Assembly: GCF_900130045.1 (NCBI RefSeq)
Contig: NZ_FQXT01000001.1
Coordinates: forward strand, 787,014-851,013
Length of the DNA: 64,000 nucleotides
DNA from: Leeuwenhoekiella palythoae
Lineage (GTDB): Bacteria > Bacteroidota > Bacteroidia > Flavobacteriales > Flavobacteriaceae
Reading direction: 5' to 3'
This document shows, one piece after another, positions 24,630 to 39,034 of the stretch; the stretch's first letter is position 1, and every line of letters begins with the position of its first letter. Under the pieces are notes generated by a model. The model was given only the letters and a program-made list of their open reading frames with translations. It was not told the origin of the DNA and did no database searches. The position numbers and the translations under genes are program-made.

Positions 24630-24668
24630 TAAAACAGTACCATTTTTAACATTTTAAAACTTCTTGTC

Positions 24669-24947
24669 AGTTCGCGCAGTCGAGAACTCCAAGCAATACA
24701 AATCTCGATTAATCCAATATTGCCACTCAAAAACGCTTCTCGATACAAATTAAGTTCCTTTAACACTCCGATCAATCCACTCGAAGTGACAAACTAGGTC
24801 AGTTCTAGTGATGTTAGAGCGCCCAAGCGCGAAAACATAGTATCGAGAACTCCAGCGCTAATCCTAAATTGAACAGCTTTACTTGTAATTCTTCTCGATA
24901 CAAATTAAACTCCTTTAACACTCCGCTTAATTCACTCGATGTGACAA
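24669..24947. repeat. Two diverged tandem units in the rmlA-ugd gap
   Basis: The gap 24630-25272 has no gene. It holds two related units, about 24669-24794 and 24839-24947. Each has TCGAGAACTCC at the left and a matching block beginning CTTCTCGATACAAATTAA, continuing with CCTTTAACACTCCG and ending in CACTCGA-GTGACAA (24736-24794 and 24891-24947). The ends resemble the palindromes embedded in fcl and trpF. No open frame of note is present. Confidence 0.75.
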
Positions 24948-25009
24948 GTATCGGTTGCATAAAAAGGCACTAAAACTAATTTTAATTAGATAGCATTTTA
25001 CGGCCTATA

Positions 25010-25168
25010 GAAAAGGACTCGTAAAATTTGAAATGAGCTCTTCGTGAAATTTCCTTTTGTTTGACCCAGAGGGGAGTTAAGGAAATTTAGAAGGCGAATG
25101 ATAAATTTAGAGTCGTTTTCTTAAGCCTAGCGTTTTTTGGTTCTTTTTTTGGCAATGCAAAAAAGAAC
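25010..25168 (+). repeat. Structured interspersed element, diverged copy F
   Basis: An outer stem can be drawn between GGACTCGTAAAATTT (about 25016-25030) and AAATTTAGAGTCGTTTTC, and a terminal hairpin GTTCTTTTTTT/AAAAAAGAAC with loop containing GGCAATGC lies at 25139-25168. Layout (long enclosed stem, then a separate A/T-rich hairpin) matches the better copies at 28240, 29517, 29970 and 38852, but primary sequence is diverged. Confidence 0.5.
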
Positions 25169-25272
25169 ATATGCCCGTTATAATCCTATCTGAAAACAGT
25201 TCGTAGGGCCTGAAAATTCTCAGTTGCTTCTCACCATAGCTTACCTAGAGCTTAAAGCCATTGCAAGCCATC

Positions 25273-26667
25273 TTAACTCCCTATCGCATAAAACTCAAAT
25301 CCTAGATCCGTCAAAGCCTCTTTATCTAACAAGCGACGTCCATCAAACAAAAATGCCGGTTTAAGCATGTGTGTATAGATCGCTTCCCAATCTAAGGTTT
25401 TAAATTCGTCCCATTCGGTCATCACGGCGACAGCATGTGCTTCTGCACAAGCAGCTTCTGCCGTATTCACCACAGTGATCAGCTTACGGTTTTCTTCTTC
25501 AGAACGCGTCCCCAGATAATCCAGATCTGCCAGGATCTGTTCTTGGGTCACTTTAGGATCATACACCACGATCTCGGCTTGCTCATTCAGTAAATAGTCA
25601 GCCACATAGATGGCTGCAGATTCGCGGGTATCATTCGTATCTTTTTTAAATGCCCAGCCCAAAAGTGCTATTTTCTTTCCGGAAACCGTATTGAACAAGG
25701 TTTTAACGATCTTAGCAGCAAAACGGCGTTTTTGATGATCGTTCATCAAGATCACCTGCTCCCAATAATCGGCCACTTCATTCAAACCAAAAGACTTGGC
25801 GATATACACCAAATTCAAGATATCCTTTTGAAAACATGAGCCTCCAAAACCTACTGAAGCTTTCAAGAATTTAGGTCCAATCCGGCTGTCCATCCCAATG
25901 GCTTTAGCCACCTCCTGCACATCGGCTTCCGTCACTTCACAGAGTTCAGACATCGCATTGATGCTCGATACCCGCTGCGCCAAAAAGGCATTGGCGGTTA
26001 ATTTAGAAAGTTCGGAAGACCATACATTGGTGGTCAAAATATTATCCGGGGTCACCCAATGTGCATACACATCCACCAAGGCTTGAATGGCTTCCCGCCC
26101 TTTTTCCGAATCCAGATCTCCCCCGATCAACACGCGATCGGGCTTATGCAAATCGGTCACCGCGGTTCCCTCTGCTAAAAATTCAGGATTCGATAAAATC
26201 TGAAAGTTCACACCATTCCCGGTATTATCCAAAATACGCTTTAAGGCTTCGGCCGTACGTACGGGTAAGGTAGATTTCTCAACAATGATCTTATCATTCT
26301 TCGCTACCCGTGCGATTTGCCGTGCACACAACTCAATATACTTCAGATCGGCAGCCATGCCTTTACCCATCCCGTAGGTCTTAGTAGGGGTATTCACCGA
26401 AATAAAGATCATATCGGCTGCATCGATCGCAGCATCCACATCCGTTGAAAAAAACAGGTTGCGACCGCGCGCCTCAGCCACCACCTCAGAAAGTCCCGGC
26501 TCATAGATCGGGATTTGTTCTACATCAGGATCGTTCCAGGCTGCAATACGTTTTTCGTTAATATCGACCACCGTCACGGTTATTTCCGGTGATTTTTGGG
26601 CGATGATCGCCATTGTAGGACCGCCTACATACCCGGCGCCAATACAACAGATATTTTTAACTTTCAT
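25273..26667 (-). CDS. UDP-glucose 6-dehydrogenase
   Basis: Oxidises UDP-glucose to UDP-glucuronate with NAD. Length is 464 residues. The Rossmann motif [16 protein letters not shown] is at the N-terminus; [30 protein letters not shown] and [12 protein letters not shown] follow, and the catalytic cysteine is in [10 protein letters not shown] (about residue 275). C-terminal [17 protein letters not shown] is conserved. The GMAADLKY region and length recall the larger, eukaryote-like UGDH group also found in Bacteroidota. It feeds the UDP-xylose synthase at the left end of the locus. Confidence 0.96.
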
Positions 26668-26682
26668 AAAAGATATTTATTT

Positions 26683-26706
26683 CATTCCCTTGAAGAAGGG
26701 AATCTC
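26683..26706 (+). repeat. GAAG-loop hairpin, variant ATTCCCTT/AAGGGAAT
   Basis: Perfect 8-bp stem ATTCCCTT/AAGGGAAT around a GAAG loop, flanked by C on the left and CTC on the right. It belongs to the hairpin family also found in the trp operon gaps, with a different stem sequence but the same loop and flanks. It lies between the Wzi gene and ugd. Confidence 0.75.
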
Positions 26707-26712
26707 TCAAGA

Positions 26713-28104
26713 CTATAGACTAAAATTATACCTATACCCCAAGCCTACACCCAGGGTGTTCTGTACACGATCACTCCAATCGAGTCCTAAAGTTCCGGTA
26801 AAAACTCCAAAAGCAGTAGCATAACGCAACTCCCCATAACTGTAAAGCGCGTGCTCCCGGGGTTGATAAGAAATATTATAAGTACCCAAATTAGTCACAT
26901 AGCTCAACTTCCCACGATACTGCAACTTGCCAAAACTTCCGGTAGCACCTAAGTGCACCACATAACTACGGTCATTTACATTACGCTGCCCATAGACTCC
27001 GGGGATAATAAAGGGCAATCCAATAATACGGTTTTGATAATTCCAACCGCTTTGATAAATTCCATTCCAAAAATAGCTATCACCCCCACTAAAAGACCCA
27101 CCGTTACTCGCATCTCCAAAACGCCCACTTTGCGAAACGGTTTGTACATATTCTAGGTCTAGCGCATCCAACCACGAGATCCCTTCGGGTTCTAAATATG
27201 CCCCCCAAACCCCATCGGGAAAGTTACTCAACTCGATCCCCGAGGTATCTTCAAATAGACTTTGATGATAGAGTTTCAGGTAAAAGGTAGGGCGGGTGAA
27301 TTCGTACGCGAGTTCATACGACCCCAGACCATTCCCCAAACTATTGATTTGATCTCCTCCAAAAGCTCCGGATCCGGCAGAAGCCCCCTGACCAAAAAAG
27401 ATATTGATCAAATTCTTAAAGTCGGTAGGTTGTTCACCATACACTGGTGAAGTCCCGCCGAATTGCACATAATGCTTCATACTGCCACTCAGACGGTCTC
27501 CAGGACTGAACACCAAAGCCAACTCCAGACTCTTGTGATGTACTTGTGCGTTGCTTACATACCGATCTTCTTCTAAAAAATAGTGCCCAAAAGTTGCCGA
27601 GGCCTCCAACCACTTGAAGACTTTTAAGGGTTTCAGCATACGGATATAGATCCCGGGTAAGGCTCTAGCGTTGTTACTCCATACAATATCGCCATCTACG
27701 CTCGAGATTCCGTTGAGTTGACGCTCCCGGTGTTTTAACCCTGCATTGGCTTCTATCCACTTCCAGGTATAGGTAGCATAAAGCTCATCGGCCTTAACCC
27801 CATCATAGATCCCGTCATTAGCCAAAAGTCCCCCACCAATTTCAAGACGATGGTTTTCATTAAAGCGGGTCGCATAGGCCACCTGAGCTAATCCCAAAAC
27901 ATTAGTCTCAGCATCCAGCCTTCCATATTGGTTGCTGTACATCCAAAACGGATTTTCCGATCCGGTTGCGGCAAGTCCACGCCCGCTGATCGACAACTGC
28001 AGCCCCTCAAGCTCTTGCGCTTGCCCATACGACACAGAAGCACCTCCTATGAGCGTTAGGGTTAGCAGCAGGCTGTTTATTCTTTTTTGCAGAAACCTAT
28101 TCAA
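26713..28104 (-). CDS. Capsule assembly Wzi-family outer membrane protein
   Basis: Predicted outer membrane beta-barrel of 463 residues with a signal peptide (basic start, LLLTLTLIGGASVSYGQAQ). The mature N-terminus LQLSISGRGLAATGSENPFWMYSNQYG and repeated amphipathic strands ending GVGLGYRYNFSL fit the Wzi/CAPS_assemb_Wzi family, which helps anchor capsule at the cell surface. The start is TTG at 28104. It sits between ugd (45 bp) and a 462-bp gap carrying a structured repeat. Confidence 0.85.
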   Translation of the reverse strand: MNRFLQKRINSLLLTLTLIGGASVSYGQAQELEGLQLSISGRGLAATGSENPFWMYSNQYGRLDAETNVLGLAQVAYATRFNENHRLEIGGGLLANDGIYDGVKADELYATYTWKWIEANAGLKHRERQLNGISSVDGDIVWSNNARALPGIYIRMLKPLKVFKWLEASATFGHYFLEEDRYVSNAQVHHKSLELALVFSPGDRLSGSMKHYVQFGGTSPVYGEQPTDFKNLINIFFGQGASAGSGAFGGDQINSLGNGLGSYELAYEFTRPTFYLKLYHQSLFEDTSGIELSNFPDGVWGAYLEPEGISWLDALDLEYVQTVSQSGRFGDASNGGSFSGGDSYFWNGIYQSGWNYQNRIIGLPFIIPGVYGQRNVNDRSYVVHLGATGSFGKLQYRGKLSYVTNLGTYNISYQPREHALYSYGELRYATAFGVFTGTLGLDWSDRVQNTLGVGLGYRYNFSL

Positions 28105-28239
28105 TTTATAATCTTTTAAAGTTTTGATTGCGCTTCACTTGTCCTTTTGGAAGGCTTCTCTCTATTTTAAAACTTCAGACAGATTGTTTAAAGTCCGTTT
28201 TTAAGTCCTTCTTTTCTAATTTAACTCAATGCTATTCTA

Positions 28240-28394
28240 CCTCGGTTCAGAATAGCTGTAGGAAGCTCCGAAAGAAAGGAGCGATAGCGACGCGGAGCTG
28301 ACAAAGCGATTTTGCCTTATTAGGCAAAAATTCCTAAGCGAGGGGGTCTTTTCTTTTGTTACTTTTCTTTGGACAAGCAAAGAAAAGTAAAAGA
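28240..28394 (+). repeat. Structured interspersed element, copy A
   Basis: It fills much of the gene-free gap 28105-28566. The outer stem is CCTCGGTT (28240) against AAGCGAGG; inside are GCTCCG/CGGAGC and the hairpin TTTTGCC-TTATTA-GGCAAAA. After the outer stem comes CTTTTCTTTTG and a terminal hairpin TTACTTTTCTTTG/CAAAGAAAAGTAA with loop GACAAG. The same layout with different but still pairing stems occurs at 29517, 29970 and 38852. Confidence 0.85.
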
Positions 28395-28506
28395 TTTCCA
28401 TGGCTCCGCCGCGTCACCCCCATTTTTCTAATGAAAAGCAACCTGCCTCAACAACAAACTTTATTAAGCAACGCTACCAAGCACTAAAAGCTTTAGCGGT
28501 ACTCAT

Positions 28507-28533
28507 AAAAAGACCTCCCTAGAAAGGAGGCTA
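28507..28533 (-). terminator. Putative intrinsic terminator just after upxY
   Basis: Read on the minus strand: GCCTCC, a 7-nt loop TTTCTAG, GGAGGT, then CTTTTTA. It lies 34 bp after the upxY stop and ahead of the Wzi gene. The stem is short but G+C-rich and is followed by a T run. It would stop transcripts before the polysaccharide genes unless antitermination occurs. Confidence 0.6.
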
Positions 28534-28566
28534 TACGCGCTAACGGTTCGCAGCGCTATATCGTAT

Positions 28567-29043
28567 TTAATTGACCAAATCTTTTAACCGGGCCTCCACA
28601 ATGACACCCAAACTTTTAATGGCCATTTTTAACTTTTTACGTCCTACCTCCTGCACCACACCTTTTTGCCCTTTAAAATGACCACTGGCAATTTTCACTT
28701 CGGTTCCGGGTTGGTAGGCGCATACACGCACCTCAGTCACGGCATCATCAGACAGCCAGTTTTGAATGGCTGCGATCTCTTCATCGCGCACAATGGCGGG
28801 TTTACCTAACCAAAACAGATAACGTACGACTCCATGCACCGCAAACACCTGTTGGCGATCCGTGGAATTTAAACGAACAAAAACATAGGATTTAAAAAGC
28901 GGAACACGTATTTTTTTCTTACGATCACTCCAAATACGCACCTCTTCCAGTGTAGGACAAAAGACTTCAACCCCTATTTTTTCAAGCGCCGAAGCCACTT
29001 TTTTTTCTGTTTGTGGTTTAACGTATAACACGTACCAATTCAT
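28567..29043 (-). CDS. UpxY-like specialised NusG paralog (transcription antiterminator)
   Basis: NGN-domain protein of 158 residues; ATG 29043 is chosen because NusG paralogs start MNWYVLYVKPQ (an upstream start at 29091 is rejected). The NGN signature WYVLYVKPQTEKKVASAL is followed by LFKSYVFVRL, and a C-terminal KOW-like part GTEVKIASGHFKGQKGVVQEV. Members of the UpxY/LoaP/RfaH group bind RNA polymerase at one operon and suppress termination; in Bacteroides each UpxY sits first in its capsule operon. Here it likewise precedes the whole 28-kb polysaccharide locus, with a terminator directly after it. Confidence 0.92.
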   Translation of the reverse strand: MNWYVLYVKPQTEKKVASALEKIGVEVFCPTLEEVRIWSDRKKKIRVPLFKSYVFVRLNSTDRQQVFAVHGVVRYLFWLGKPAIVRDEEIAAIQNWLSDDAVTEVRVCAYQPGTEVKIASGHFKGQKGVVQEVGRKKLKMAIKSLGVIVEARLKDLVN

Positions 29044-29270
29044 GCAAATCGTTTCTTTTAGCGTTACAAAATTTAGGGGATTTTCTAACATCTAGGTTGG
29101 CGAAAATAAGTAAATCTACCAGTTAAACAAGGGTAATTTAGTATTTAATTTTAAACAAAAATTAAGAAAAATCGCTCAAAGTCAGAAGAAAAACGTTATC
29201 GACAACAGCTTCAAGGCTTTAAAATTTACGGAATTAACTTTATCTAAAATTCAAAATACAAAAGTAGAAC

Positions 29271-29511
29271 TACAAAATACAACACACAGTCATTTCGATC
29301 AACGGGAGAAATCACATCTGCTTGGCAATTCTACATATGCTCTCACCTCCAACTCTTAAAGCAAAAGACAGTCCACGGTGCCGCATTTACTATTTTGAGC
29401 TAATAAATCTAAGACCACACCAAATGAGAAATACAGATCAACAGCTGTCAGTACCAGTAGCCAGTTTGCGGTTTGCCTTTTATAGTATTAAATATCCATA
29501 CCCAAAGGGTT
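29271..29511 (+). repeat. Direct repeat, copy 1 (about 240 bp)
   Basis: The gene-free gap 29044-30554 is built from repeats. This segment shares with 29699-29952 long matching blocks such as GAGAAATCACATCTGCTTGG, AGCAAAAGACAGTCCACG and CCAGTTTGCGGTTTGCC, ending in TCCATACCCAAAGGGTT. The middle is less similar. No protein-coding frame is conserved between the copies. Confidence 0.88.
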
Positions 29512-29516
29512 TAGTA

Positions 29517-29679
29517 TCCTTTTGGTCAGTATAGCAACAGTTGTCCGTTAAAAATTCATGAAGCCTTGGAAGGAATTTAGGACAACTGTTGCGGTTTTCG
29601 CCTCAGGCGAAAAATACCTATCCAAAAGGTGTCCTTTCTTTTGATACTTTTCTTTGGACAATCAAAGAAAAGTAAAAAT
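29517..29679 (+). repeat. Structured interspersed element, copy E
   Basis: The outer stem is CCTTTTGG/CCAAAAGG, the second stem CAACAGTTGTCC/GGACAACTGTTG, the third hairpin TTTTCGCC-TCA-GGCGAAAA, then TGTCCTTTCTTTTG and the terminal hairpin ATACTTTTCTTTG/CAAAGAAAAGTAA with loop GACAAT. All three enclosed stems differ in sequence from copy A but remain fully paired. It lies between the two 240-bp direct repeats. Confidence 0.85.
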
Positions 29680-29698
29680 CAACAATCAGAAATAGAAA

Positions 29699-29952
29699 TA
29701 CAAAATACAACGCCCAGTCATTTCGACCAGCAGGAGAAATCACATCTGCTTGGCAATTCTGCATATGTTCTCATCGCCAACTCTTAAAGCAAAAGACAGT
29801 CCACGATGGAGCGTATATGGTTTTGGATTATAAGATCTAAACATAAACCCGACAAGAAACGGAAATCAGAAATAGAAATTAACAGTTAGCAGTAGCAATA
29901 GCCAGTTTGCGGTTTGCCTTTTATAGTATTAAATATCCATACCCAAAGGGTT
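29699..29952 (+). repeat. Direct repeat, copy 2 (about 250 bp)
   Basis: Partner of 29271-29511, offset by about 430-440 bp and slightly longer. The order in the gap is direct repeat, element E, direct repeat, element B, which suggests that a repeat-plus-element unit was duplicated. Confidence 0.88.
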
Positions 29953-29969
29953 CAACGAATCTAAAAACT

Positions 29970-30170
29970 CCCTCGGTTCAGAATAGACGCAGGGCGTTCC
30001 GAAGGACAGGAGCGATAGCGACGCGGAACTAACAAGACGGTTTTCGCCTAAGCGAAAAATTCCTAAACGAGGGGCTCTTTTCTTTTGTTACTTTTCTTTG
30101 GAGAAGCAAATCGACGCTAGGAGATTCACGAGCTCTCGTGGAATAGAAATCTTGCGAGTAAAGAAAAGTA
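29970..30170 (+). repeat. Structured interspersed element, copy B, with split terminal hairpin
   Basis: It starts CCCTCGGTT CAGAATAG, has GTTCCG/CGGAAC in place of GCTCCG/CGGAGC of copy A, the hairpin TTTTCGCCTAAGCGAAAA and closes with AAACGAGGGG. The terminal hairpin arm TTACTTTTCTTTG is followed by GAGAAGCAAA, then about 50 bp containing TTCACGAGCTCTCGTGG (30111-30158), and only then AAAGAAAAGTAA. So the 3' arm is interrupted by a GAGCTC-type module. Confidence 0.8.
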
Positions 30171-30202
30171 AAGAATATAATACCTAAGTAAAATTACTCA
30201 AT

Positions 30203-30262
30203 CCGACATTTGGAGATTTACGAGCTCCCGCAAAATAATCATCATGCGAGTAAAGAAAATGA
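30203..30262 (+). repeat. GAGCTC module copy 2
   Basis: Contains GGAGATTTACGAGCTCCCGC, then ATAATCATCATGCGAGTAAA and GAAAATGAA. It aligns with the module inside element B and with 30296-30354 and 34560-34620. Each ends in an A-rich AAAGAAAA arm like that of the terminal hairpin. Confidence 0.75.
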
Positions 30263-30295
30263 ATAAACAACATTTTAAAGTAAACATTACTCAAA

Positions 30296-30354
30296 CCGAG
30301 GATCCGAGGTTAACGAGCTCCCGTAACATAGAAATCAATCAATTAAAGAAAAAT
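30296..30354 (+). repeat. GAGCTC module copy 3
   Basis: Contains CCGAGGATCCGAGG, TTAACGAGCTCCCGTAACAT and a terminal TTAAAGAAAAATAA. More diverged than the other copies. Nothing else is seen between here and the terminator at 30471. Confidence 0.65.
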
Positions 30355-30470
30355 AAAAAATCATCAATCAAAAATCAGAAACAATAAATAAAGAACCTTC
30401 ACACCAAACCCATAACATATCAAATCATTGAGCAAAGCCAGTATACGACCATACTACATTTGAAATAAAA

Positions 30471-30502
30471 AAAATCCCCGAATGAAGTTTCGAGGATTTT
30501 TG
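30471..30502 (-). terminator. Terminator of the thioredoxin/rhodanese operon
   Basis: On the minus strand: AAAAATCC-T-CGA, loop, TCG-G-GGATTTTTTTT. It lies about 50 bp after the rhodanese stop, which fits the end of the three-gene minus-strand operon. Confidence 0.75.
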
Positions 30503-30554
30503 GTATTTATAAAAAGTTGAATCTATTTAAGGATGACTCACTACCAGAAATGAC

Positions 30555-30872
30555 CTATTCCTGATACGTCGTTTCTCCGTCCCACTCCATAAATCCACCA
30601 AGCAGGTTGTAGGTGTTTTCAAAGCCCAGCTGATCCATCAGTTGTGCTGCTTGCCCGCTTCGGTTTCCGGAACGACAATAGATGTAATAATTTTTTGATT
30701 TGTCAAGTTCGTTTACTTTATCAATAAATCCTTGACCTTCATAAATATCGATATGATGTGAATTGGGGATGATGCCCTCATCTACTTCATTTTGTGTACG
30801 TACATCGAGAATAAAAGCATTATCATCTTCAGCGATTTGCGCTTCCCATTCTTCCTGAGTTATATTTTTCAT
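30555..30872 (-). CDS. Rhodanese-like domain protein
   Basis: Single rhodanese domain, 105 residues from ATG 30872. The active-site loop is YCRSGNRSGQAA with the catalytic cysteine, preceded by ILDVRTQNEVDEGIIPNSHH. An in-frame ATG at 30932 overlaps the upstream stop, but the extra 20 residues look like translated spacer, so the later start is preferred. Sulfur transfer or thiol chemistry is the family role. It is the last gene of an operon with two thioredoxin-fold proteins, which suggests a thiol-redox link. Confidence 0.88.
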   Translation of the reverse strand: MKNITQEEWEAQIAEDDNAFILDVRTQNEVDEGIIPNSHHIDIYEGQGFIDKVNELDKSKNYYIYCRSGNRSGQAAQLMDQLGFENTYNLLGGFMEWDGETTYQE

Positions 30873-30931
30873 CGTAAATTTTTTAGTATAAAAATCAAAA
30901 ATAAGGCATTGCTCAAGCTTTTCCAACGGCA

Positions 30932-31552
30932 TTACGCCTTAATAGCGCAACCAATCGCCTTGGTCGTTTCTGGGGTTACCGAAGTATCATTCAGCAAAGC
31001 TTCCACAGCATCAGCCACAAAGGCATGAGTAACAGAGGCGGCATCCCGCACACTGTCATCGATAGCCCCAATATACCGTACGATCAATGCATCTTCTTCC
31101 TTTTGAAGAACATAAACATGCGGCGTTTTGGTCGCCCCGTAAGTGGCATAAACCTCGTGATTGGCGTCATACAAATACGGATATGTAACACCCAAGTCCT
31201 TAGCAACTTTTTGCATTTCCGCATAGCTTTCGCCGGATTTCACCTCCGGGTTATTCGGGTTGATCGCGATCACGGGATAGCCCTTTGGTTTAAAGGCGGC
31301 ATCTAAAGCCTGAATACGCTCTTGATTGGCAATAGCAAACGGACATGTATTGCACGTAAACACGACGATAAATCCTTTGGCTTCGCCGAAATCAGAAAGC
31401 GAAACGAGTTCGCCTGAAACATCTTTCAACCTAAAATCAGATGCACGATCGCCAATGTCGTAGCCCGATTTGAATTGATTAAAGCCGGCGATTCCCAGCG
31501 CAGAAACGACCAGGACCAGCGTAAGTACGATCAATACTTTTAAAGATTTCAT
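30932..31552 (-). CDS. Membrane-anchored thioredoxin-like (redoxin/AhpC-TSA) protein
   Basis: Protein of 206 residues with an N-terminal hydrophobic anchor (LIVLTLVLVVSALGIAGF) and a redoxin domain: DRASDFRLKDVSGELVSLSD, then FTCNTCPFAIANQERI with two cysteines spaced CNTC, and TKTPHVYVL (cis-Pro equivalent). A third cysteine sits near the C-terminus (AIGCAIKA), as in the related family of CNTCPF proteins. It probably acts at the periplasmic side in thiol redox reactions. It lies one base after the TlpA-like lipoprotein gene. Confidence 0.88.
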   Translation of the reverse strand: MKSLKVLIVLTLVLVVSALGIAGFNQFKSGYDIGDRASDFRLKDVSGELVSLSDFGEAKGFIVVFTCNTCPFAIANQERIQALDAAFKPKGYPVIAINPNNPEVKSGESYAEMQKVAKDLGVTYPYLYDANHEVYATYGATKTPHVYVLQKEEDALIVRYIGAIDDSVRDAASVTHAFVADAVEALLNDTSVTPETTKAIGCAIKA

Positions 31553-31553
31553 A

Positions 31554-32102
31554 TTAGTTAGAATTCAAGTTAGGGTTTAAAGCAAGTACTTCGCGCTCCA
31601 GACTTCGGTAATCAAAGGATTGCTCATAAAATCTATAGGCATCTTCAGCGATCAACAAGGTGGCCGGTATCGCACCACTCCACGACTCGGATACCTGCGG
31701 GATCCAGACATTGCTATGAGGATCATCCAACAGTAACACCTGGGCGGCAAGTTGATTTTTCAATATATACGGGATCAAGCGTGCTTCAATTTGATCAGGA
31801 AAATCCAGACTCACCAAGGTCACTTCTACCCCTTGCTTGCGATACGCTGCGTGAAGTTTTTCAAATACAGGCAGTTCCTGCACACAGGGCGCACACCAAG
31901 TTGCCCAAAAATTGATCACTTTTACCGTCTCACCTTCCGGAAAATCAAGCATCGGTTTAAAGGCTTCAAAATCATAAACAGGTAACTGGTATCCTTCCGC
32001 GTTAACAATGCGTACAGGTTTTGCGGCTTGTATAGAAGCTGCTTTAGAAGCACAGCCCATTAACACACACAACATCCAAAAACCGAGTAATCCTCTAATC
32101 AA
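31554..32102 (-). CDS. TlpA-like thiol-disulfide oxidoreductase lipoprotein
   Basis: Protein of 182 residues with a lipoprotein signal (LLGFWMLCVLMGC, lipobox LMGC) and a TlpA/ResA-like thioredoxin domain: ETVKVINFWATWCAPCVQEL with the CAPC active site, and AIPATLLI near the C-terminus. It should work in the periplasm, tethered to a membrane. The start is TTG at 32102. It is first in the operon with the CNTCPF protein and the rhodanese. Confidence 0.9.
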   Translation of the reverse strand: MIRGLLGFWMLCVLMGCASKAASIQAAKPVRIVNAEGYQLPVYDFEAFKPMLDFPEGETVKVINFWATWCAPCVQELPVFEKLHAAYRKQGVEVTLVSLDFPDQIEARLIPYILKNQLAAQVLLLDDPHSNVWIPQVSESWSGAIPATLLIAEDAYRFYEQSFDYRSLEREVLALNPNLNSN

Positions 32103-32319
32103 TAGTTCCTTTTTTTTTCCTGGTGCCGATTTCCTATGTGTATCGAATCAGCAAAAAGCATATAATCACTTGCGGTAAATTTAAGGAATACAACATTTTG
32201 ATAACAGATTTTAGGAATTGTATAACATCTACAGCGTTGTATTGAATTTATTCTCGTTGAGAAACCTTAAAATTACGTTAAAGCGGAGAACTCATTTCCA
32301 TCTAAACAAAAAATAATTA

Positions 32320-32336
32320 TACATTTGTACATACAA
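32320..32336 (+). promoter_or_regulatory. -7 box and palindromic candidate operator before marR
   Basis: TACATTTG (32320-32327) matches the Bacteroidota -7 consensus TAnnTTTG. It overlaps TTGTACATACAA (32325-32336), in which TTGTA and TACAA form an inverted repeat. The same 12 bases lie before the YceI gene at 33454. A second, looser palindrome TTGTAGATACACAA follows at 32340. This fits autoregulation by the MarR protein, but it is untested. Confidence 0.65.
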
Positions 32337-32352
32337 CAATTGTAGATACACA

Positions 32353-32811
32353 ATGAAGATCGAAGAAGCATTAAAAATAGGAAACGGTTTAGACTTGTCC
32401 TCAAAAACCTTGATTAACATTCAATACACTTCCAGATTTCTGGAAGAACATTTTGCTGCGCTTCTTAAGGAATTTGATTTGAGTACTCCACAATTTAATG
32501 TGTTGCGCATTTTACGCGGACAGAAAGGAAAACCTGCCAGTCTGGCCTGCATTCAGGAACGTATGGTAGACCGAAGCAGTAATACGACCCGCTTGGTTGA
32601 TAAGTTGATCAAAAAAGCGCTGGTAAGCAGACGCATCTGCCCTGCGAACCGCCGTAAAGTAGAAATCGAAATTACCGCTGCAGGTTTGGAGTTATTAGAA
32701 GACTTAGACCCGCTCACCGCTGCATCCAATGCGGCAAACACCGCGACCTTAACCACAACAGAATTAGAAACCTTGAATACTTTATTAGATAAATTAAGAA
32801 AAGATGAGTAA
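32353..32811 (+). CDS. MarR-family transcriptional regulator
   Basis: Winged-helix regulator of 152 residues. The DNA-binding part runs from DLSTPQFNVLRILRG through LACIQERMVDRSSNTTRLVD to the wing KALVSRRICPANRRKVEIEI. MarR proteins often respond to small phenolics or oxidants and repress neighbouring oxidoreductases. The gene overlaps the nitroreductase gene by 8 bp, and a palindrome repeated upstream of marR and of yceI marks these as likely targets. Confidence 0.93.
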   Translation: MKIEEALKIGNGLDLSSKTLINIQYTSRFLEEHFAALLKEFDLSTPQFNVLRILRGQKGKPASLACIQERMVDRSSNTTRLVDKLIKKALVSRRICPANRRKVEIEITAAGLELLEDLDPLTAASNAANTATLTTTELETLNTLLDKLRKDE

Positions 32812-33436
32812 GTATATTGAACACCTCAACTGGCGATACGCCACCAAGCAGTTTGACGCAAACAAGAAGTTAAGCGAAGACCAACTGCAAACCCTAATAG
32901 ATGCCGTACAACTTTCGGCTTCTTCTTATGGATTACAGCCATACAAGATCCTAGTGATCAAAGATGAAAAGATCAAAGAACAGTTGAAAGCCGCCGGCTA
33001 CAACCAAGCACAATTCACAGATGCATCGGCCATTTTTGTGTTTGCACATCAAACTGATTTTGGAGCCGAACTTGTAGACAGTTATATTGACCACGCAGCA
33101 CGTATTAAAGAAGTCGAAACAGGCGCTTTAGAAGATTATGCAAATCTGATGAAAAACAGCCTTTTAAATCTTCCACAAGAAGCTAAAGCCGGTTGGACTG
33201 CCCGCCAAGCCTACATCGCTCTTGGAAATTTATTAAGTGCCGCTGCCGCTCATCAGATCGACACCTGCCCGATGGAAGGTTTTGATGCGGATGCATTTGA
33301 TAAAATTTTAGGACTTGCTGACACCAACTTACATGCGGTTGTTGTTGCCGCAGCAGGCTATCGCAGTGCTGAAGATCAAACGCAGCACGCTGCTAAAGTA
33401 AGACGCCCACAGGAAGAACTTTTTCAGATCCTCTAA
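32804..33436 (+). CDS. NAD(P)H-dependent oxidoreductase, nitroreductase family
   Basis: Flavin-dependent nitroreductase-fold protein of 210 residues. It begins YIEHLNWRYATKQFDANKKL, typical of the NfsB/YfkO-like group, with SASSYGLQPYKILVI (FMN contact), and CPMEGFDADAFDKILGL near the C-terminus. It probably reduces quinones or nitro compounds with NAD(P)H. It is translationally coupled to the MarR regulator. Confidence 0.92.
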   Translation: MSKYIEHLNWRYATKQFDANKKLSEDQLQTLIDAVQLSASSYGLQPYKILVIKDEKIKEQLKAAGYNQAQFTDASAIFVFAHQTDFGAELVDSYIDHAARIKEVETGALEDYANLMKNSLLNLPQEAKAGWTARQAYIALGNLLSAAAAHQIDTCPMEGFDADAFDKILGLADTNLHAVVVAAAGYRSAEDQTQHAAKVRRPQEELFQIL

Positions 33437-33448
33437 AAAATTTTAACC

Positions 33449-33465
33449 AACATTTGTACATACAA
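33449..33465 (+). promoter_or_regulatory. Candidate MarR operator before the YceI gene
   Basis: AACATTTG followed by the same TTGTACATACAA palindrome (33454-33465) seen before marR. The position relative to the -7-like box is the same in both copies, so the YceI gene is probably under the same control although it has its own promoter. Confidence 0.6.
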
Positions 33466-33500
33466 TTTTAATCCCTACAACAATAAAAATTTAGAATTTC

Positions 33501-34139
33501 ATGAGCACTCTTAATCAAAGCTTAGCAAAACTAAACTTGGCTACAAAAAAAGCCTTCAATCAACTTAACCGCGATAATCGCGTTAAATCAGTATTAATCT
33601 TAGCAGTAGGCATTGCCGCTGCATCATTTACAACAAAAACTATTATGGAAAAAGTAAGCGTAAAAAGCAGTTCAATCACTTGGGTTGGCAAAAAAGTAAC
33701 CGGAAAACATATGGGAACCATCGACCTCAAAGAAGGCTTCTTTGAAATGGAAGACGGCGCAGTTACCGGAGGTGAATTTATGATTGATATGAACAGTATT
33801 GCCTGTACAGACCTTGAAGGAGACAGCAAAGGGCAACTAGAAGGGCACTTAAAAAGTGACGACTTCTTTGGTGTTGAGAACTACCCAACCGCTAAATTGG
33901 TAATCACTAATGCAGTAAAGAATGGAAACACTTATAAAGTAACCGGTGACCTTACCATTAAAGAAACGACTGAACCTATCACTTTTGATCTTGAAGAAGC
34001 CGGTGACAACTTCACCACTACCCTAACCATAGACCGCAGTAAATACAACGTACGTTACGGGTCTGGAAGCTTCTTTGACAATCTAGGAGACAAAACCATC
34101 TATGACGACTTTACTTTAGATATCAACTTGTCTATCTAA
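33501..34139 (+). CDS. YceI-family lipid-binding protein
   Basis: Protein of 212 residues with an N-terminal charged stretch and one hydrophobic segment (VKSVLILAVGIAAASF, residues about 30-46), then a YceI lipocalin-like domain: SSITWVGKKVTGKHMGTI, GEFMIDMNSI, LKSDDFFGVENYPTAKL and DRSKYNVRYGSGSFFDN. YceI proteins bind isoprenoid-type lipids and are usually periplasmic. It is a probable member of the MarR regulon by its upstream palindrome and is followed by a strong terminator. Confidence 0.93.
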   Translation: MSTLNQSLAKLNLATKKAFNQLNRDNRVKSVLILAVGIAAASFTTKTIMEKVSVKSSSITWVGKKVTGKHMGTIDLKEGFFEMEDGAVTGGEFMIDMNSIACTDLEGDSKGQLEGHLKSDDFFGVENYPTAKLVITNAVKNGNTYKVTGDLTIKETTEPITFDLEEAGDNFTTTLTIDRSKYNVRYGSGSFFDNLGDKTIYDDFTLDINLSI

Positions 34140-34164
34140 TTAATAGTCCTTCACAAGTATTTAG

Positions 34165-34195
34165 AAAGCTGCCTTTAAAAAAAGGCAGCTTTTTT
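34165..34195 (+). terminator. Intrinsic terminator after the YceI gene
   Basis: Perfect stem AAAGCTGCCTTT/AAAGGCAGCTTT followed by a T run, 26 bp after the stop codon. Confidence 0.92.
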
Positions 34196-34268
34196 ATGGA
34201 ACAACGCAATTCTAGACTACTTTATTAGAACAAATAAGATACCTGAAGGGTGAAATGTAATCAAACTT

Positions 34269-34480
34269 CCCTCGGTTCAGAATAGACGCAAGGACAGAGC
34301 ATTAAGAAAAGGTCTAGTAGACCTTTTTAGCGAATGAGCTAGATGGCGCGTTGGCTTTGGAATGGAATTTTTTACTTCAAGTAGGAACTACTATAAAAAA
34401 ACTTCTACAGCGACACGGAGCTTGCAAGGCAGTTTTTGCCTGATAAGGCAAAAAATTCATAAGCGAGGGTGTCTTTTCTT
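34269..34480 (+). repeat. Structured interspersed element, copy C (interrupted)
   Basis: It starts CCCTCGGTTCAGAATAGACG and ends AAGCGAGGGTGTCTTTTCTT, with the hairpin TTTTTGCC-TGATAA-GGCAAAAA near the end. About 80 bp of unrelated DNA (with AGGTCTAGTAGACCT, a small perfect palindrome) lies in the inner region. The terminal A/T hairpin is absent; instead GCATCCGACGACCGCAGGGA and a closing ATGC follow (34484-34513), another interspersed-repeat type. Confidence 0.75.
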
Positions 34481-34559
34481 TTCTGCATCCGACGACCGCA
34501 GGGAGAGGAATGCATCTGTTGTGCTTTGTAATCATGTTAGTTGAATTAGTATTAGCAAA

Positions 34560-34620
34560 TCGAGGATACGAGATTCACGAGCTCCCGTAAAATAACAATC
34601 ACGCGAGCAAAGAAAATGAA
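34560..34620 (+). repeat. GAGCTC module copy 4
   Basis: Contains TCGAGGATACGAGATTCACG, AGCTCCCGTAAAATAACAAT and AGCAAAGAAAATGAA. It aligns along its length with the modules at 30111, 30203 and 30296. It is a further piece of the repeat tract in the 759-bp stretch between the YceI gene and trpE. Confidence 0.75.
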
Positions 34621-34722
34621 CAACCACGATTTCTGATAAAATCTTTAATCTACTTATAACGGCATCTCACCTAACATCAACTCGACTAATGAATAATTTT
34701 TTAAAAGTAATTTTAAAAAATA

Positions 34723-34753
34723 TTGGTCTCTTTCTGAACGATGTGTATCTTTG
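34723..34753 (+). promoter_or_regulatory. trp promoter
   Basis: TTG at 34723-34725 and TATCTTTG at 34746-34753 with 20 bp between them match the Bacteroidota -33/-7 consensus. The start point would be about 34758, only a few bases ahead of the leader peptide ATG. Confidence 0.75.
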
Positions 34754-34762
34754 AGGCTCATT

Positions 34763-34810
34763 ATGAAAAACAAAACAGTAAATACTTGGTGGTGGATCTC
34801 GCAACAGTAA
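34763..34810 (+). CDS. trpL: trp leader peptide
   Basis: A 15-codon frame reading MKNKTVNTWWWISQQ with three consecutive tryptophan codons (TGG TGG TGG) and a TAA stop. It is followed by mutually exclusive RNA pairings and a terminator ahead of trpE, so it is the sensing peptide of a classical attenuator: ribosome stalling at the Trp codons would favour the antiterminator. Confidence 0.93.
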   Translation: MKNKTVNTWWWISQQ

Positions 34811-34811
34811 C

Positions 34812-34876
34812 GTCGTGAAGCAACCTTGTATTTAATATCAAAATAAAAAAGGCCTGTCTCACGACAGGTCTTTTTG
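34812..34876 (+). promoter_or_regulatory. trp attenuator (antiterminator and terminator)
   Basis: The terminator is CCTGTC-TCAC-GACAGG (34853-34868), extended by A/T pairs and followed by TCTTTTTG. The competing antiterminator is GTCGTGA (34812-34818), which pairs perfectly with TCACGAC (34859-34865), using the loop and 3' arm start of the terminator. GTCGTGA lies directly after the leader stop codon, so a ribosome finishing the peptide would mask it and one stalled at Trp codons would not. Confidence 0.9.
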
Positions 34877-34898
34877 TTTATAAGCCTATCAACCCAAA

Positions 34899-36296
34899 AT
34901 GAAATACACCTTAAAAACCCACCGCAAAAAAATTCTTGCAGATACCATCACTCCGGTGTCGGTTTACCTGCGTCTGCGTGATAAGTTCCCAAACAGCCTG
35001 CTCCTCGAGAGTAGCGACTACCGGGCTAACGACAACACCTTCAGCTACATCTGCTGCAAACCTATCGCTTCGATCACCGTAAAAAACGAAGTGATCACCG
35101 AAGTTTTCCCTGACGGAACTACCACAACCACGGCCATTGAAGTTGATACCGATGTGGTAGGCATCATTGAAGCTTTTGCTAAAAAATTTGAAACCGAAGA
35201 CAACGAACAGAAGTTCATTCAAAACGGACTCTTCGGCTATATGAGTTATGACGCCGTGCGTTATTTTGAAGATATTGAAGTGACCAAAAAAGAAGCGCAG
35301 CTTGATGTGCCAGACTTGTATTATGCAGTCTACCAAAACATCATTGCCATCAATCACTTCAATAACGAAGCGCACATTTTTTCACATACCTATAACGAAG
35401 AGAACAACCTCAGCCAGATCGCTCAACTGCTTACCGTAAAAAGTTTTGCCGAGTATCATTTTAAGCTGGAAGGCGAACAACAATCGCAGATGTCTGACGA
35501 GGCTTTTATAGAGCTGGTAAAAACCTGTAAAAAGCATTGCCAGCGTGGAGATGTGTTTCAGATCGTTCCATCTAAACGCTTTTCACAAGGCTTTAGCGGA
35601 GACGAGTTTAACGTGTACCGAAGCTTACGCAGCGTCAACCCTTCGCCGTATCTGTTCTTTTTTGACTACGGTAATTTTAAGATCTTCGGAAGTTCACCTG
35701 AAGCACAGCTCATCGTTAAAGAAGGCAAAGCCGAAATTCACCCGATCGCCGGGACCTTTAAACGTACCGGAAATGATGAAAAAGACGCCGCTTTGGCCAA
35801 GAAACTTTCGGAAGATGCCAAAGAGAACAGCGAGCACGTGATGCTGGTCGATTTGGCCCGCAACGACCTGAGCCGTAACGGCAGTAATGTAAAAGTAGAA
35901 ACCTATCGTGAGGTACAATTTTTTTCGCACGTGATCCATCTGGTGAGTAAAGTGACAGGAACCAAACATCCTGATACCTCAACCATGCGGGTTGTGGCAG
36001 ACACCTTTCCGGCAGGAACTTTAAGCGGTGCACCCAAACACAATGCGATGAAATTGTTGGAGAAATACGAACCTATCAACCGAGATTTCTACGGAGGTGC
36101 CATTGGGTTTATGGATTTCAACGGAAACTTCAATCATGCGATCATCATCCGTTCCTTTTTAAGTAAAAACCACCAATTGCATTATCAAGCGGGAGCAGGA
36201 ATCGTAAGCGACAGCGTACCGGAAAAAGAATTAGAAGAAGTATATAATAAATTAGGAGCCCTTACCAAAGCCCTTAAACTGGCTGAAGAACTATAA
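34899..36296 (+). CDS. trpE: Anthranilate synthase component I
   Basis: Makes anthranilate from chorismate with ammonia from TrpG. Length is 465 residues. The N-terminal part carries the tryptophan feedback motif LLES (in NSLLLESSDYRAN). The chorismate-binding domain has GDVFQIVPSKRFSQ, PSPYLFFFDYG, HPIAGTFKRTG, ENSEHVMLVDLARNDL and FPAGTLSGAPKHNAM. It lies 23 bp after the attenuator and 1 bp before trpG. Confidence 0.97.
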   Translation: MKYTLKTHRKKILADTITPVSVYLRLRDKFPNSLLLESSDYRANDNTFSYICCKPIASITVKNEVITEVFPDGTTTTTAIEVDTDVVGIIEAFAKKFETEDNEQKFIQNGLFGYMSYDAVRYFEDIEVTKKEAQLDVPDLYYAVYQNIIAINHFNNEAHIFSHTYNEENNLSQIAQLLTVKSFAEYHFKLEGEQQSQMSDEAFIELVKTCKKHCQRGDVFQIVPSKRFSQGFSGDEFNVYRSLRSVNPSPYLFFFDYGNFKIFGSSPEAQLIVKEGKAEIHPIAGTFKRTGNDEKDAALAKKLSEDAKENSEHVMLVDLARNDLSRNGSNVKVETYREVQFFSHVIHLVSKVTGTKHPDTSTMRVVADTFPAGTLSGAPKHNAMKLLEKYEPINRDFYGGAIGFMDFNGNFNHAIIIRSFLSKNHQLHYQAGAGIVSDSVPEKELEEVYNKLGALTKALKLAEEL

Positions 36297-36297
36297 C

Positions 36298-36870
36298 ATG
36301 AAAAAACGAGTTTTAGTCATAGACAATTACGACAGTTTTGTGTACAATCTGGTACACTATCTTGAAGATTTAGACTGCGAAGTCACCGTAAAACGTAACG
36401 ATCAACTGCAACTAGAAGAAGTGGCTGCTTTTGATAAGATCCTGCTGTCACCCGGACCGGGAATTCCCGAAGAAGCTGGTCTGCTTCTGGAAATCATTAA
36501 AACCTACGCACCTACTAAAAGTATGTTTGGCGTTTGCTTAGGCCAGCAGGCCATTGGTGAAGTTTTTGGTGGAACGCTTATCAATTTAGATCAGGTGTTT
36601 CACGGGGTTGCGACTTCGGCTAAACAACTGGTGACTGATGAGCCCCTTTTTAAAGATATTCCTACGGAATTTGAAATTGGCAGATACCACTCGTGGGTCG
36701 TTGCTCCCGAAAATTTCCCGGAAGCTTTAGAGATCACTTCGGTGGATGTGAACGGACAAATCATGTCGCTACGCCATAAAGAATATGACGTGCGCGGCGT
36801 ACAATTTCACCCCGAATCGGTACTGACTCCCGAAGGCAAAACAATGATCAAAAATTGGGTAAATAACTAA
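36298..36870 (+). CDS. trpG: Anthranilate synthase component II (glutamine amidotransferase)
   Basis: Class I glutamine amidotransferase of 190 residues. It has the catalytic cysteine in FGVCLGQQAIGE (about residue 80), the oxyanion motif LSPGPGIPEEAG and the His-Glu pair in VQFHPESVLTPEG. It supplies ammonia to TrpE. It is separate from trpD, unlike fused TrpGD of enterobacteria. Confidence 0.96.
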   Translation: MKKRVLVIDNYDSFVYNLVHYLEDLDCEVTVKRNDQLQLEEVAAFDKILLSPGPGIPEEAGLLLEIIKTYAPTKSMFGVCLGQQAIGEVFGGTLINLDQVFHGVATSAKQLVTDEPLFKDIPTEFEIGRYHSWVVAPENFPEALEITSVDVNGQIMSLRHKEYDVRGVQFHPESVLTPEGKTMIKNWVNN

Positions 36871-36879
36871 ATATTTTTT

Positions 36880-36987
36880 CATTTCCGTGAAGACGGAAAT
36901 CTTTAAAATAAAAGAAGTAGTCCATTTCCGTGAAGACGGAAATCTCATGAATCAAAACAAGTCTATTTCCATGAAGATGGAAATCTC
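36880..36987 (+). repeat. Three GAAG-loop hairpins between trpG and trpD
   Basis: Copies at 36880-36902, 36923-36946 and 36964-36987. The stems are ATTTCCGT/ACGGAAAT (twice) and ATTTCCAT/ATGGAAAT; the loop is GAAG each time and CT or CTC follows. The third copy changes both sides of one pair, so pairing is kept. Confidence 0.88.
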
Positions 36988-37029
36988 ACATAAATAATAA
37001 TGCTCCCTACGGAGTACTTATAGCGAATA

Positions 37030-38025
37030 ATGAAAACAATATTAAATCGACTCATAAACCACGAGCAACTCAGTAAAGAAGAGGCACGCGAGGTTTTGGT
37101 CAATATTTCAGAAGGAAAATACAACACCAGTCAGATTGCGGCTTTTATCACAGTGTATATGATGCGCAGCATTACTGTTGAAGAACTTGCCGGCTTCAGA
37201 GATGCGTTGCTTGATTTGTGCATTGCCGTACCCTTTGACGGATACAACGCCATCGACCTCTGTGGAACCGGTGGTGATGGTAAAAACACGTTTAACATCT
37301 CTACACTTTCCTCATTTGTAGCAGCAGGTGCAGGAATCAACGTAACCAAGCACGGAAACTACGGAGTTTCTTCCGTGAGCGGAAGCAGCAACGTTATGGA
37401 AAGCTTCGGAATAAAATTCACCAACGATGCCGACTTTTTAAAGCGCTGTCTGGATGAAGCCGGTATTTGTGTATTGCACGCGCCGCTTTTCCATCCGGCG
37501 ATGAAAAATGTGGGGCCTATTCGTCGCGAACTTGGGGTAAAAACCTTTTTCAATATGCTGGGCCCTATGGTGAATCCGGCGTTTCCTGAGAACCAACTCG
37601 TGGGTGTTTTCAATTTGGAACTCGCTCGTTTATATGGATATCTGTATCAGGATACTAAAAAGAACTTCACCATTTTACACAGTATCGACGGCTATGACGA
37701 GATTTCCCTTACCGGAAATACCAAAGCCATTCGCAACAACAGCGAGCGTATGTTGACTGCTGAAGATTTTGGGGTTCATACCATCAAGCAAGAAGAAATT
37801 TATGGTGGCGACACCATCGAATCTTCTGCGGCGATCTTTAAAAAAGTGATCAGCGGTAAAGGCACCGAAGCGCAAAACAATGTGGTTTGTGCCAATGCAG
37901 GTATGGCCATTGCCACCGTTAAAAACCTCGAACCTAAAGCAGGTTTTGAACTTGCTAAAGAATCTCTTTTAAGCGGAAAAGGACTTGAACGCTTAAATAA
38001 ACTCATAGCCCTAAGCAGCAAATAA
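37030..38025 (+). CDS. trpD: Anthranilate phosphoribosyltransferase
   Basis: Second step of tryptophan synthesis, 331 residues. It has the PRPP-binding motif DLCGTGGDGKNTFNIST near residue 76, KHGNYGVSSVSGSSNVME near 112, and HPAMKNVGPIRRELGVKTFF, all class signatures. It starts 159 bp after trpG, a gap holding three hairpins, and is followed after one base by trpC. Confidence 0.97.
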   Translation: MKTILNRLINHEQLSKEEAREVLVNISEGKYNTSQIAAFITVYMMRSITVEELAGFRDALLDLCIAVPFDGYNAIDLCGTGGDGKNTFNISTLSSFVAAGAGINVTKHGNYGVSSVSGSSNVMESFGIKFTNDADFLKRCLDEAGICVLHAPLFHPAMKNVGPIRRELGVKTFFNMLGPMVNPAFPENQLVGVFNLELARLYGYLYQDTKKNFTILHSIDGYDEISLTGNTKAIRNNSERMLTAEDFGVHTIKQEEIYGGDTIESSAAIFKKVISGKGTEAQNNVVCANAGMAIATVKNLEPKAGFELAKESLLSGKGLERLNKLIALSSK

Positions 38026-38026
38026 G

Positions 38027-38809
38027 ATGAATATATTAGACAAAATAATCGCCGATAAATACAAAGAAGTAGCCTTACGCAAGCAGCTGATTCCGGTGAA
38101 ACAATTGGAACAGTCGGTACTTTTTGAACGTAAATCGCCTTCGCTTGCGCAAGCCTTGAGCACAAGCGCCTCAGGAATCATCGCTGAGCATAAACGCCGG
38201 TCGCCCAGTAAAGCGACGATCAATCACAACCTCAATGTGCAAGATGTAGCCAGTGGTTACGAGCAAGCCGGAGTTTGTGGAATGAGCGTACTTACTGATG
38301 GAAAATATTTTGGCGGTTCGCTGGACGATTTGTTACTGGCGCGCGCCGCAGCACAATTACCGCTGTTACGCAAAGAATTTGTGATCGACACCTACCAAAT
38401 TCTGGAAGCGAAAGCCTATGGTGCCGATGTGATCTTGCTCATTGCAGCAGTGCTCACTCGGGAAGAGATCAAAACCCTTTCAGAATTTGCTAAATCGCTT
38501 GGTCTTGATGTACTTCTCGAGGTGCACAATCTGGAAGAATTGCAAAAGTCGGTGATGCCGTCTTTAGATATGTTGGGCGTAAACAATCGCAACCTGAAAA
38601 CTTTTGAAGTGAGCCTCGAAACCAGCAAAAGCCTATCGGCTGAAATCCCGGATGATTTTGTAAAAGTATCTGAAAGCGGCATCAGTTCGATCGAAGCGAT
38701 CAAAGCCTTACAGCCCTATGGCTATAAAGGATTCCTCATTGGCGAGAACTTTATGAAAACCGATGATCCCGGCGCCAGCGCAACCGAATTTATCAAACAG
38801 CTTATTTAA
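38027..38809 (+). CDS. trpC: Indole-3-glycerol phosphate synthase
   Basis: TIM-barrel enzyme of 260 residues. It has the catalytic lysines in IIAEHKRRSPSK and LLRKEFVIDTYQI, plus GVNNRNLKTFEV and KVSESGIS. It is monofunctional, with TrpF encoded separately downstream. It begins one base after the trpD stop. Confidence 0.97.
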   Translation: MNILDKIIADKYKEVALRKQLIPVKQLEQSVLFERKSPSLAQALSTSASGIIAEHKRRSPSKATINHNLNVQDVASGYEQAGVCGMSVLTDGKYFGGSLDDLLLARAAAQLPLLRKEFVIDTYQILEAKAYGADVILLIAAVLTREEIKTLSEFAKSLGLDVLLEVHNLEELQKSVMPSLDMLGVNNRNLKTFEVSLETSKSLSAEIPDDFVKVSESGISSIEAIKALQPYGYKGFLIGENFMKTDDPGASATEFIKQLI

Positions 38810-38851
38810 TAGTATATAAATTGAATACTAAATAGTAGAAATGCGAAGCCT

Positions 38852-39007
38852 CCTTTTGTTCCAGAATAGGCTTTATAAAATGGGAAAGACAGCGCAGCGC
38901 CCATTTTATAAAATGGTTTTCATAACCGACGAAGGTTATGGAAAATTCCTAACAAAAGGCGTCTTTTTCTTTGGTTCGTTTCTTTTGGACGAGCAAAAGA
39001 AATGAAC
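38852..39007 (+). repeat. Structured interspersed element, copy D, in the trp operon
   Basis: Outer stem CCTTTTGTT/AACAAAAGG (perfect), inner stem TTTATAAAATGGG against CCATTTTATAAA, third hairpin CATAACC-GACGAA-GGTTATG, then CGTCTTTTTCTTTG and terminal hairpin GTTCGTTTCTTTTG/CAAAAGAAATGAAC with loop GACGAG. Every stem differs from copy A but pairs as well or better. It fills the 225-bp trpC-trpF gap. Confidence 0.87.
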
Positions 39008-39034
39008 AAAACAGAATAGGAAGTAATAAAATTA

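Follow-up and report, generated by a model that had tools for sequence, protein, structure and literature searches.

The stretch of Leeuwenhoekiella palythoae DNA analyzed here (64,000 nucleotides [nt] of contig NZ_FQXT01000001.1, herein referred to as the window) carries several copies of a non-coding element of 160–200 nt, whose fold spans its whole length and comprises six helices and a predicted pseudoknot. Copies were scored over positions 24900–39100 with the covariance model R2, filters off, and the sequence was also read directly:

24999–25169, + strand: F, 27.4 bits (E 3e-5), which shares the 3′ module (GCC/GGC, TTTTTT, AAAAAA)
28237–28392, + strand: copy A, 92.9 bits, type 1, with P1, P1b, a class B P2, P3, the pseudoknot linker and P4
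29516–29677, + strand: copy E, 149.9 bits, type 2, complete
29968–30172, + strand: copy B, 65.7 bits, type 1, with P4 interrupted by another repeat
34267–34515, + strand: copy C, 26.0 bits, type 1, with an enlarged P2 domain and a replaced 3′ module
38850–39008, + strand: copy D, 99.0 bits, in sense orientation between trpC (38027–38809) and trpF (39035–39730)

An earlier note, made by a model from the sequence alone, had described six copies of one layout, one of them as weak. That description suits A, D and E, which are complete and in which the quoted stems are found (the outer stem of A with one G.G mismatch), whereas B is interrupted, its terminal hairpin carrying ∼50 extra bases, C is rearranged, another module standing in place of the 5′ arm of its terminal hairpin, and F, which resembles the others in its 3′ module and in portions of the core, is at best a distant relative. 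The minimum free energies of E, D and A lie below those of all 200 shuffles (z of −6.4, −5.4 and −4.1, respectively).

The fold runs from an optional hairpin, P0, through the outer stem P1, the helix P1b and the P2/P2b and P3 branches to a predicted pseudoknot with the terminal hairpin P4, and is laid out in copy E as follows:

29518–29525, + strand: 5′ strand of P1, CCTTTTGG, with its 3′ strand, CCAAAAGG, at 29622–29629
29529–29532, + strand: 5′ strand of P1b, GTAT, with its 3′ strand, ATAC, at 29614–29617 (the "joint" of the earlier note)
29535–29591, + strand: P2/P2b domain, with the conserved loop GAAGCCTTGGA at 29560–29570
29595–29613, + strand: P3 hairpin
29631–29634, + strand: 5′ strand of the predicted pseudoknot, GTCC, pairing with GAC in the P4 loop (29657–29659)
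29635–29642, + strand: TTTCTTTT, the predicted Hoogsteen third strand, parallel to AAAGAAAA of the P4 3′ arm
29645–29674, + strand: P4 terminal hairpin

The claim that the stems change in step is borne out across 35 aligned copies, in which 48 of 53 pairs show double-sided changes, a number reached in none of 500 shuffles (32.4 ± 1.9) and well above the 21–30 obtained when the 3′ partners were slid. Such compensatory change shows that the fold is selected, as had been proposed. In the 35 copies (30 loci) that were selected by their score with a first covariance model (R1) and aligned to that model, 45 of 49 pairs covary; this guided alignment leans toward the modeled structure, and P1b, the pseudoknot and the third strand are less biased because they are absent from the covariance model. 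In a MAFFT alignment of 17 type-2 copies built without structure, 95.5% of cells are paired and 25 of 52 pairs have changed on both sides (0 of 500 shuffles). The sequence previously read as a "CAGAATAG joint" proves to be one strand of a helix: CAGAATAG/ATTCCT and CAGTATAG/ATACCT form the covarying 4-base-pair P1b (GAAT/ATTC, GTAT/ATAC), which is paired in all 35 aligned copies (columns 15–18 with 166–169; double changes in three of its four pairs) and in 148 of 174 copies in a cruder, alignment-free scan.

Upstream of P1, a strict rule finds the triloop hairpin P0, with varied stems, in 41 of the 111 elements from other genera, whereas four control windows farther upstream gave 7, 2, 5 and 2; the same rule recovers it in 9 of 69 elements of the genus itself (controls 1, 1, 3 and 3), where ACCC-GAA-GGGT is one of the stems. 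The strand that folds can also be told. G.T cells number 39 and A.C cells 0 in the structure-free MAFFT alignment A2, from which P1 was left out, and 96 and 6 in alignment A4 (54 and 6 once two almost invariant G.T pairs are set aside), which the model biases to G.U; this excess indicates that the strand of the element is the folded strand, as RNA or as DNA. The fold is well supported, and its function is inferred. Helix P1b, hairpin P0, the predicted pseudoknot with its triple helix, and the operon contexts are new here relative to the earlier note.

The 3′ module is predicted to be an H-type pseudoknot in which the T-rich linker matches the purine arm of P4, most likely as a parallel (pyrimidine-motif, major-groove) triple helix. 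Pairings between linker and P4 loop take many forms (GTC/GAC, CTC/GAG, GCC/GGC, CTTGAA/TTCAAG, CTTGAC/GTCAAG, GGTC/GACC and TGTA/TACA). We extracted 159 terminal hairpins, dropped 16 with a filter against P3-like hairpins, and of the remaining 143 kept 113 non-redundant modules, whose mean linker–loop pairing run is 4.19 against 3.42 ± 0.06 in permuted sets, and whose mean parallel T.A/C.G run is 6.83 against 5.57 ± 0.11. Neither value is reached in 2,000 permutations, and the outcome is the same when the test is confined to the 66 distinct types, to the 92 modules from other genera or to the 22 that the phylum-wide search contributed.

It is the register, rather than the mean run, that favors a parallel over an antiparallel third strand. 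Where the tract is broken by a G (32 types), the parallel run averages 7.78 (6.81 permuted; 0 of 2,000 permutations reach it) and the antiparallel run 7.56 (7.10 permuted; 4 of 2,000). Tracts could be classed in 60 of the 66 types. Several combinations agree with a parallel register: A3GA4 occurs with T3CT4 in six types and with T4CT4 in ten more, A4GA3 with T5CT3 in five, and the combinations A4GA2-T4CT2, A4GA5-T4CT5, A4G2A3-T5C2T3 and A6GA3-T6CT3 are also seen; pure tracts agree as well (A6 with T6 in seven of eight types, A7 with T7 in three of three). Two types, A3GA3 with T4CT4 and A5GA4 with T5CT5, disagree in the number of Ts that follow the C. In ten types the arm contains a G that no C of the linker matches; eight of them have an A-tract of at least 5 before that G, which a T-run alone could cover.

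The elements fall into two main types that differ in their P2 domain, P1, P1b, P3, the linker and P4 being common to all. Type 1 (A, B and C) has GCTCCG-...-CGGAGC (in B, GTTCCG-...-CGGAAC), type 2 (E) carries the conserved loop GAAGCCTTGGA in a P2 that also has an inner helix, P2b, and copy D has a P2 of its own. At the place of C, another genome (G011) holds a chimeric element of 106.8 bits that combines a type-2 core with a type-1 3′ P1 strand (locus L346, 7491–7637), from which it follows that copies exchange modules. D sits at the trpC–trpF junction in both genomes, and gene order around E and B differs in G011. The gap in G011 that matches the place of A contains no element by R2; it is not a clean empty site, as by eye it holds other repeats and no target site can be read.

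Several other repeats accompany the window copies. One, built around GAGATTCACGAGCTCCCGTAAAATA, occurs at 30118–30350 and 34560–34620, within the terminal hairpin of B and 3′ of both B and C. An alternative 3′ module replaces the terminal hairpin in several copies and is found at these places:

window 34480–34560; L008 11149–11200; L002 14270–14330; and L026, L027 and L034: alternative 3′ module CTGCATCCGACGACCGCAGGGAG (or TTGCATCC...)

A flavobacterial repeat family around GTCAGTTC...TCGAGAAC adjoins F (24660–24960). Three copies of a short hairpin like ATTTCCGTGAAGACGGAAATC lie at 36875–36990, between genes named by eye as trpG and trpD, with a relative near 26680, and a Bacteroidete trp leader RNA (RF01692, 49.6 bits) precedes trpE at 34743–34858.

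The element is a dispersed unit. In genome G068, seven of the eight copies listed, on seven contigs, are 88.8–97.5% identical from P0 to ∼12 nt past P4, and their flanks share 19–54% identity on the left and 29–55% on the right. Outer flank complementarity is high (scores 20–25) in three of these seven (L090, L152 and L155); an outer inverted repeat was rejected as a general feature, since 40 elements sampled at random from the 118 outside the genus gave z 0.35 over eight permutations.

The absence of further copies had been named as an outcome that would refute the earlier proposal, and further copies abound. Copy A has 26 whole or partial BLAST matches in its own genome (E 3e-76 to 1e-3), and R2, applied to the window and to ten more stretches of that genome, finds 26 places at E ≤ 1e-5 (counted by locus, one cut by a locus end); copies cluster on contigs C8 and C5. 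With A as query, BLAST matches 8 of 12 other Leeuwenhoekiella genomes and none of the remaining 4. R1 matches at least 48 of 149 genomes of the family at E ≤ 0.001, a lower bound in that at most 19 candidates per genome were scored and filters were stricter, and in a sample of 395 genomes from across the phylum R2 matches at least 34, including 9 that belong to the family, with no more than 7 candidates scored in each genome. Matches from beyond the family are weak, at 31 to 54 bits, and in the sequences inspected by eye the recognizable common part is mainly the 3′ module. Among the matches listed, the class-A loop pattern is found mainly in Flavobacteriaceae (Kordia, Aquimarina, Arenibacter, Maribacter, Mesonia, Winogradskyella and others); it is only 16 bases long, so that chance matches must occur in a collection of that size. 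Nine stretches of viral contigs (L336–L344) also contain it, possibly by chance. In L189 (G098:C38:297000-306000), seven matches, one of them a fragment, form an array of ∼2.7 kb.

The conserved loop GAAGCCTTGGA and the complexity of the fold would suit a trans-acting small RNA gene or a riboswitch-like aptamer with many paralogues. We consider this unlikely: the 26 places in the searched stretches of one genome neighbor unrelated genes in both orientations, and by eye, with no dedicated scan, no obvious promoter or U-run terminator was seen in the sequences inspected.

Gene contexts outside the genus were classed for 118 of 127 matches (two duplicates, one fragment and six weaker matches were dropped), the genes being open reading frame calls rather than annotation. 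Of these elements 45 are sense, 25 antisense, 26 convergent and 18 divergent, and 4 have no context. The subfamily GAAATG-CAGAATA stands out with 14 sense, 0 antisense and 1 convergent copies, several of the 14 sharing a genome or operon; 7 of the 14 end 14–19 nt before the next start codon. A subfamily that is invariably sense between co-directional genes speaks for a function within the transcript. Within the paa operon, several gaps hold elements of this subfamily and of other types. Elsewhere an element lies between trpF and trpB (L175), and others adjoin kynureninase genes (L113 and L168), separate a PNP gene from an arsenosugar ArsM gene (L182 and, by eye, L198) or neighbor genes for ArgB, homocysteine synthase and the XdhC family (L173, L086 and L082). 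NCBIfam assignments are above cut-off for PaaA, PaaB, PaaC, TrpB, TrpC (in the window), kynureninase (L113), PNP, ArsM, ArgB and the O-acetylhomoserine enzyme, and below the equivalog cut-off for TrpF, PaaG, PaaH, MetX, ArgE and XdhC. A riboswitch for aromatic metabolism (trp, paa, kynureninase) was set aside because of the PNP/ArsM, ArgB, homocysteine synthase and XdhC-family contexts. Nor do these positions suit a family of intrinsic terminators, which the hairpin at the 3′ end might suggest: D and the paa copies sit inside operons, and in the sequences inspected by eye an A-rich sequence, not a T run, lies 3′ of P4, making this explanation very improbable.

Covariation, the folded strand, spread as a unit (in one genome) and modular exchange (at one locus) are established computationally; at the RNA level, we infer a function. 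The hypothesis that we tentatively place first, at a confidence just short of even, is that of a mobile structured repeat acting as RNA in operon transcripts, and the RNA role is placed first because of the folded-strand evidence and the 14 to 0 sense bias. A sense copy in an operon transcript would block 3′–5′ exonucleases by its triple-helix pseudoknot and would insulate the preceding cistron from the start codon that follows, and the relative expression of neighboring genes would thereby be adjusted, in the manner of an intercistronic REP/BIME built on an ENE-like triplex; copies outside such operons would mostly be dispersed passengers.

Several observations weigh against this hypothesis. 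P1b fails in 26 of the 174 copies of the crude scan, 18 of the 113 3′ modules have a triplex run below 5 or a pseudoknot run below 3, and antiparallel linker pairing also exceeds the permutations (mean run 6.58, against 6.68 parallel). Elements that do not belong to the GAAATG-CAGAATA subfamily lack a clear sense bias (31 sense, 25 antisense, 25 convergent, 18 divergent), and in Leeuwenhoekiella, where 77 of 81 R2 matches and C were classed (two cut by a locus end and two weak ones were dropped), antisense prevails over sense by 30 to 11, with 19 convergent, 13 divergent and 5 without context. The G-poor strand, with the replication strand taken from the GC skew of the stretches, holds 42 of 48 elements of the L. 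palythoae genome and G011, including 19 of the 22 between convergent or divergent genes, and, by local skew, 19 of the 25 elements considered in other Leeuwenhoekiella genomes. Clustered copies are not independent, and these counts are not clean probabilities. The bias suggests a replication-linked process.

Such a process is at the center of a rival explanation, a single-stranded DNA mobile repeat (REP/BIME- or IS200-derived) whose fold a nuclease acting in trans would recognize at the replication fork, any RNA effects being incidental. It is a distinct possibility, though we would lean against it. The strong strand bias speaks for it, as do the dispersal of similar copies among unrelated flanks, their mosaic and chimeric makeup and the lack of a clear gene-orientation bias outside one subfamily. 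However, the 14 to 0 sense bias is left unexplained, and in Leeuwenhoekiella the lagging-strand template, judged from GC skew, would be the complement of the element and not its folding strand. The search for an enzyme also tells against it: 10 of 20 element-bearing genomes examined lack a Y1 match, and only 1 of 29 Y1-centered loci searched (20 of 27 in one set and 9 of 11 in another) contains an element. The exceptions are L076 (G004), with an element near a Y1 gene, and L147, also searched although not Y1-centered, in which one Y1 gene of G066 lies ∼1.6 kb from an element. The sole Y1/RAYT-like gene found in the L. palythoae genome (L001, G000:C8:487305-490538) is flanked, by eye, by GCGCGATTGTATCGCG palindromes other than the element, and RAYT/Y1 was rejected as mobilizer for want of a consistent link. 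A structured unit with a pseudoknot at its 3′ edge might also be an orphan guide-RNA scaffold of TnpB/IscB type, moved in trans; the TnpB zinc-ribbon family matches 0 of 15 element-bearing genomes, and we find the idea hardly credible (the 0 of 15 of an IscB search, whose control was silent too, has no bearing on it).

The replication-strand bias in Leeuwenhoekiella argues for fork-linked spreading, and by analogy with REP/BIME repeats this could hold together with a transcript role. An RNA acting in operon transcripts, our preferred hypothesis, might on a wider view belong to a phylum-wide class of mobile bacterial RNAs with an ENE-like triplex pseudoknot, repeatedly recruited between cistrons to set mRNA stability and perhaps spread via an RNA or folded single-strand intermediate (SINE-like), an extension that we hold to be doubtful. 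If our reading is right, Bacteroidota would carry, and use inside operon messages, a widespread structured element based on a triple helix, which is familiar above all in telomerase and in viral and long non-coding RNAs, and the element would offer a way into how the operons of this phylum tune neighboring genes and into what moves repeats without a transposase gene or a consistently linked RAYT.

That no named family is known for the element is upheld wherever Rfam 15 was scanned: in the window and 12 other loci no element matched at gathering score, and at E ≤ 5 only six matches (E 1.6–4.3, all far under gathering) were returned over 28150–30400. No earlier description turned up in literature searches, whose reach did not extend to most subscription papers. 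Flavo-1 RNA (RF01705) and other Bacteroidetes motifs, listed as structured RNAs in a table of PMC2864571, share with the element the phylum and an RNA structure and differ in that no Rfam match falls on the elements; a match to Flavo-1 itself lies in L097 (329–412), away from the element and near a paa operon copy. The STAXI motif, as described in PMC2864571, consists of repeated pseudoknots discussed as RNA or single-stranded DNA, a likeness to the element that does not extend to architecture or contexts. REP/BIME sequences are intergenic, repetitive, palindromic and mosaic, with possible effects on mRNA, and a REP is a hairpin of ∼21–65 nt, according to PMC6006769 and PMC3733652. The element resembles this REP/BIME and RAYT (TnpA-REP) system in all of the former respects. 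It departs from it in its 160–200 nt, in a multi-branch fold with a predicted triplex pseudoknot in place of a single hairpin and in the lack of a consistently linked RAYT. No GTAG/GTGG foot was seen directly 5′ of P4 in the modules inspected by eye. Integron attC sites, which have an RYYYAAC/GTTRRRY core and go with an integrase, and retrons were considered as further possible likenesses. Triplex pseudoknots of the ENE and telomerase type are H-type, and a pyrimidine third strand lies in their major groove, parallel to a purine arm. The predicted third strand of the element matches its purine arm in the same parallel register, a likeness of statistics rather than of chemistry; the element differs in being bacterial, intergenic and repeated, and C.G-C triples would be expected inside many of its copies.

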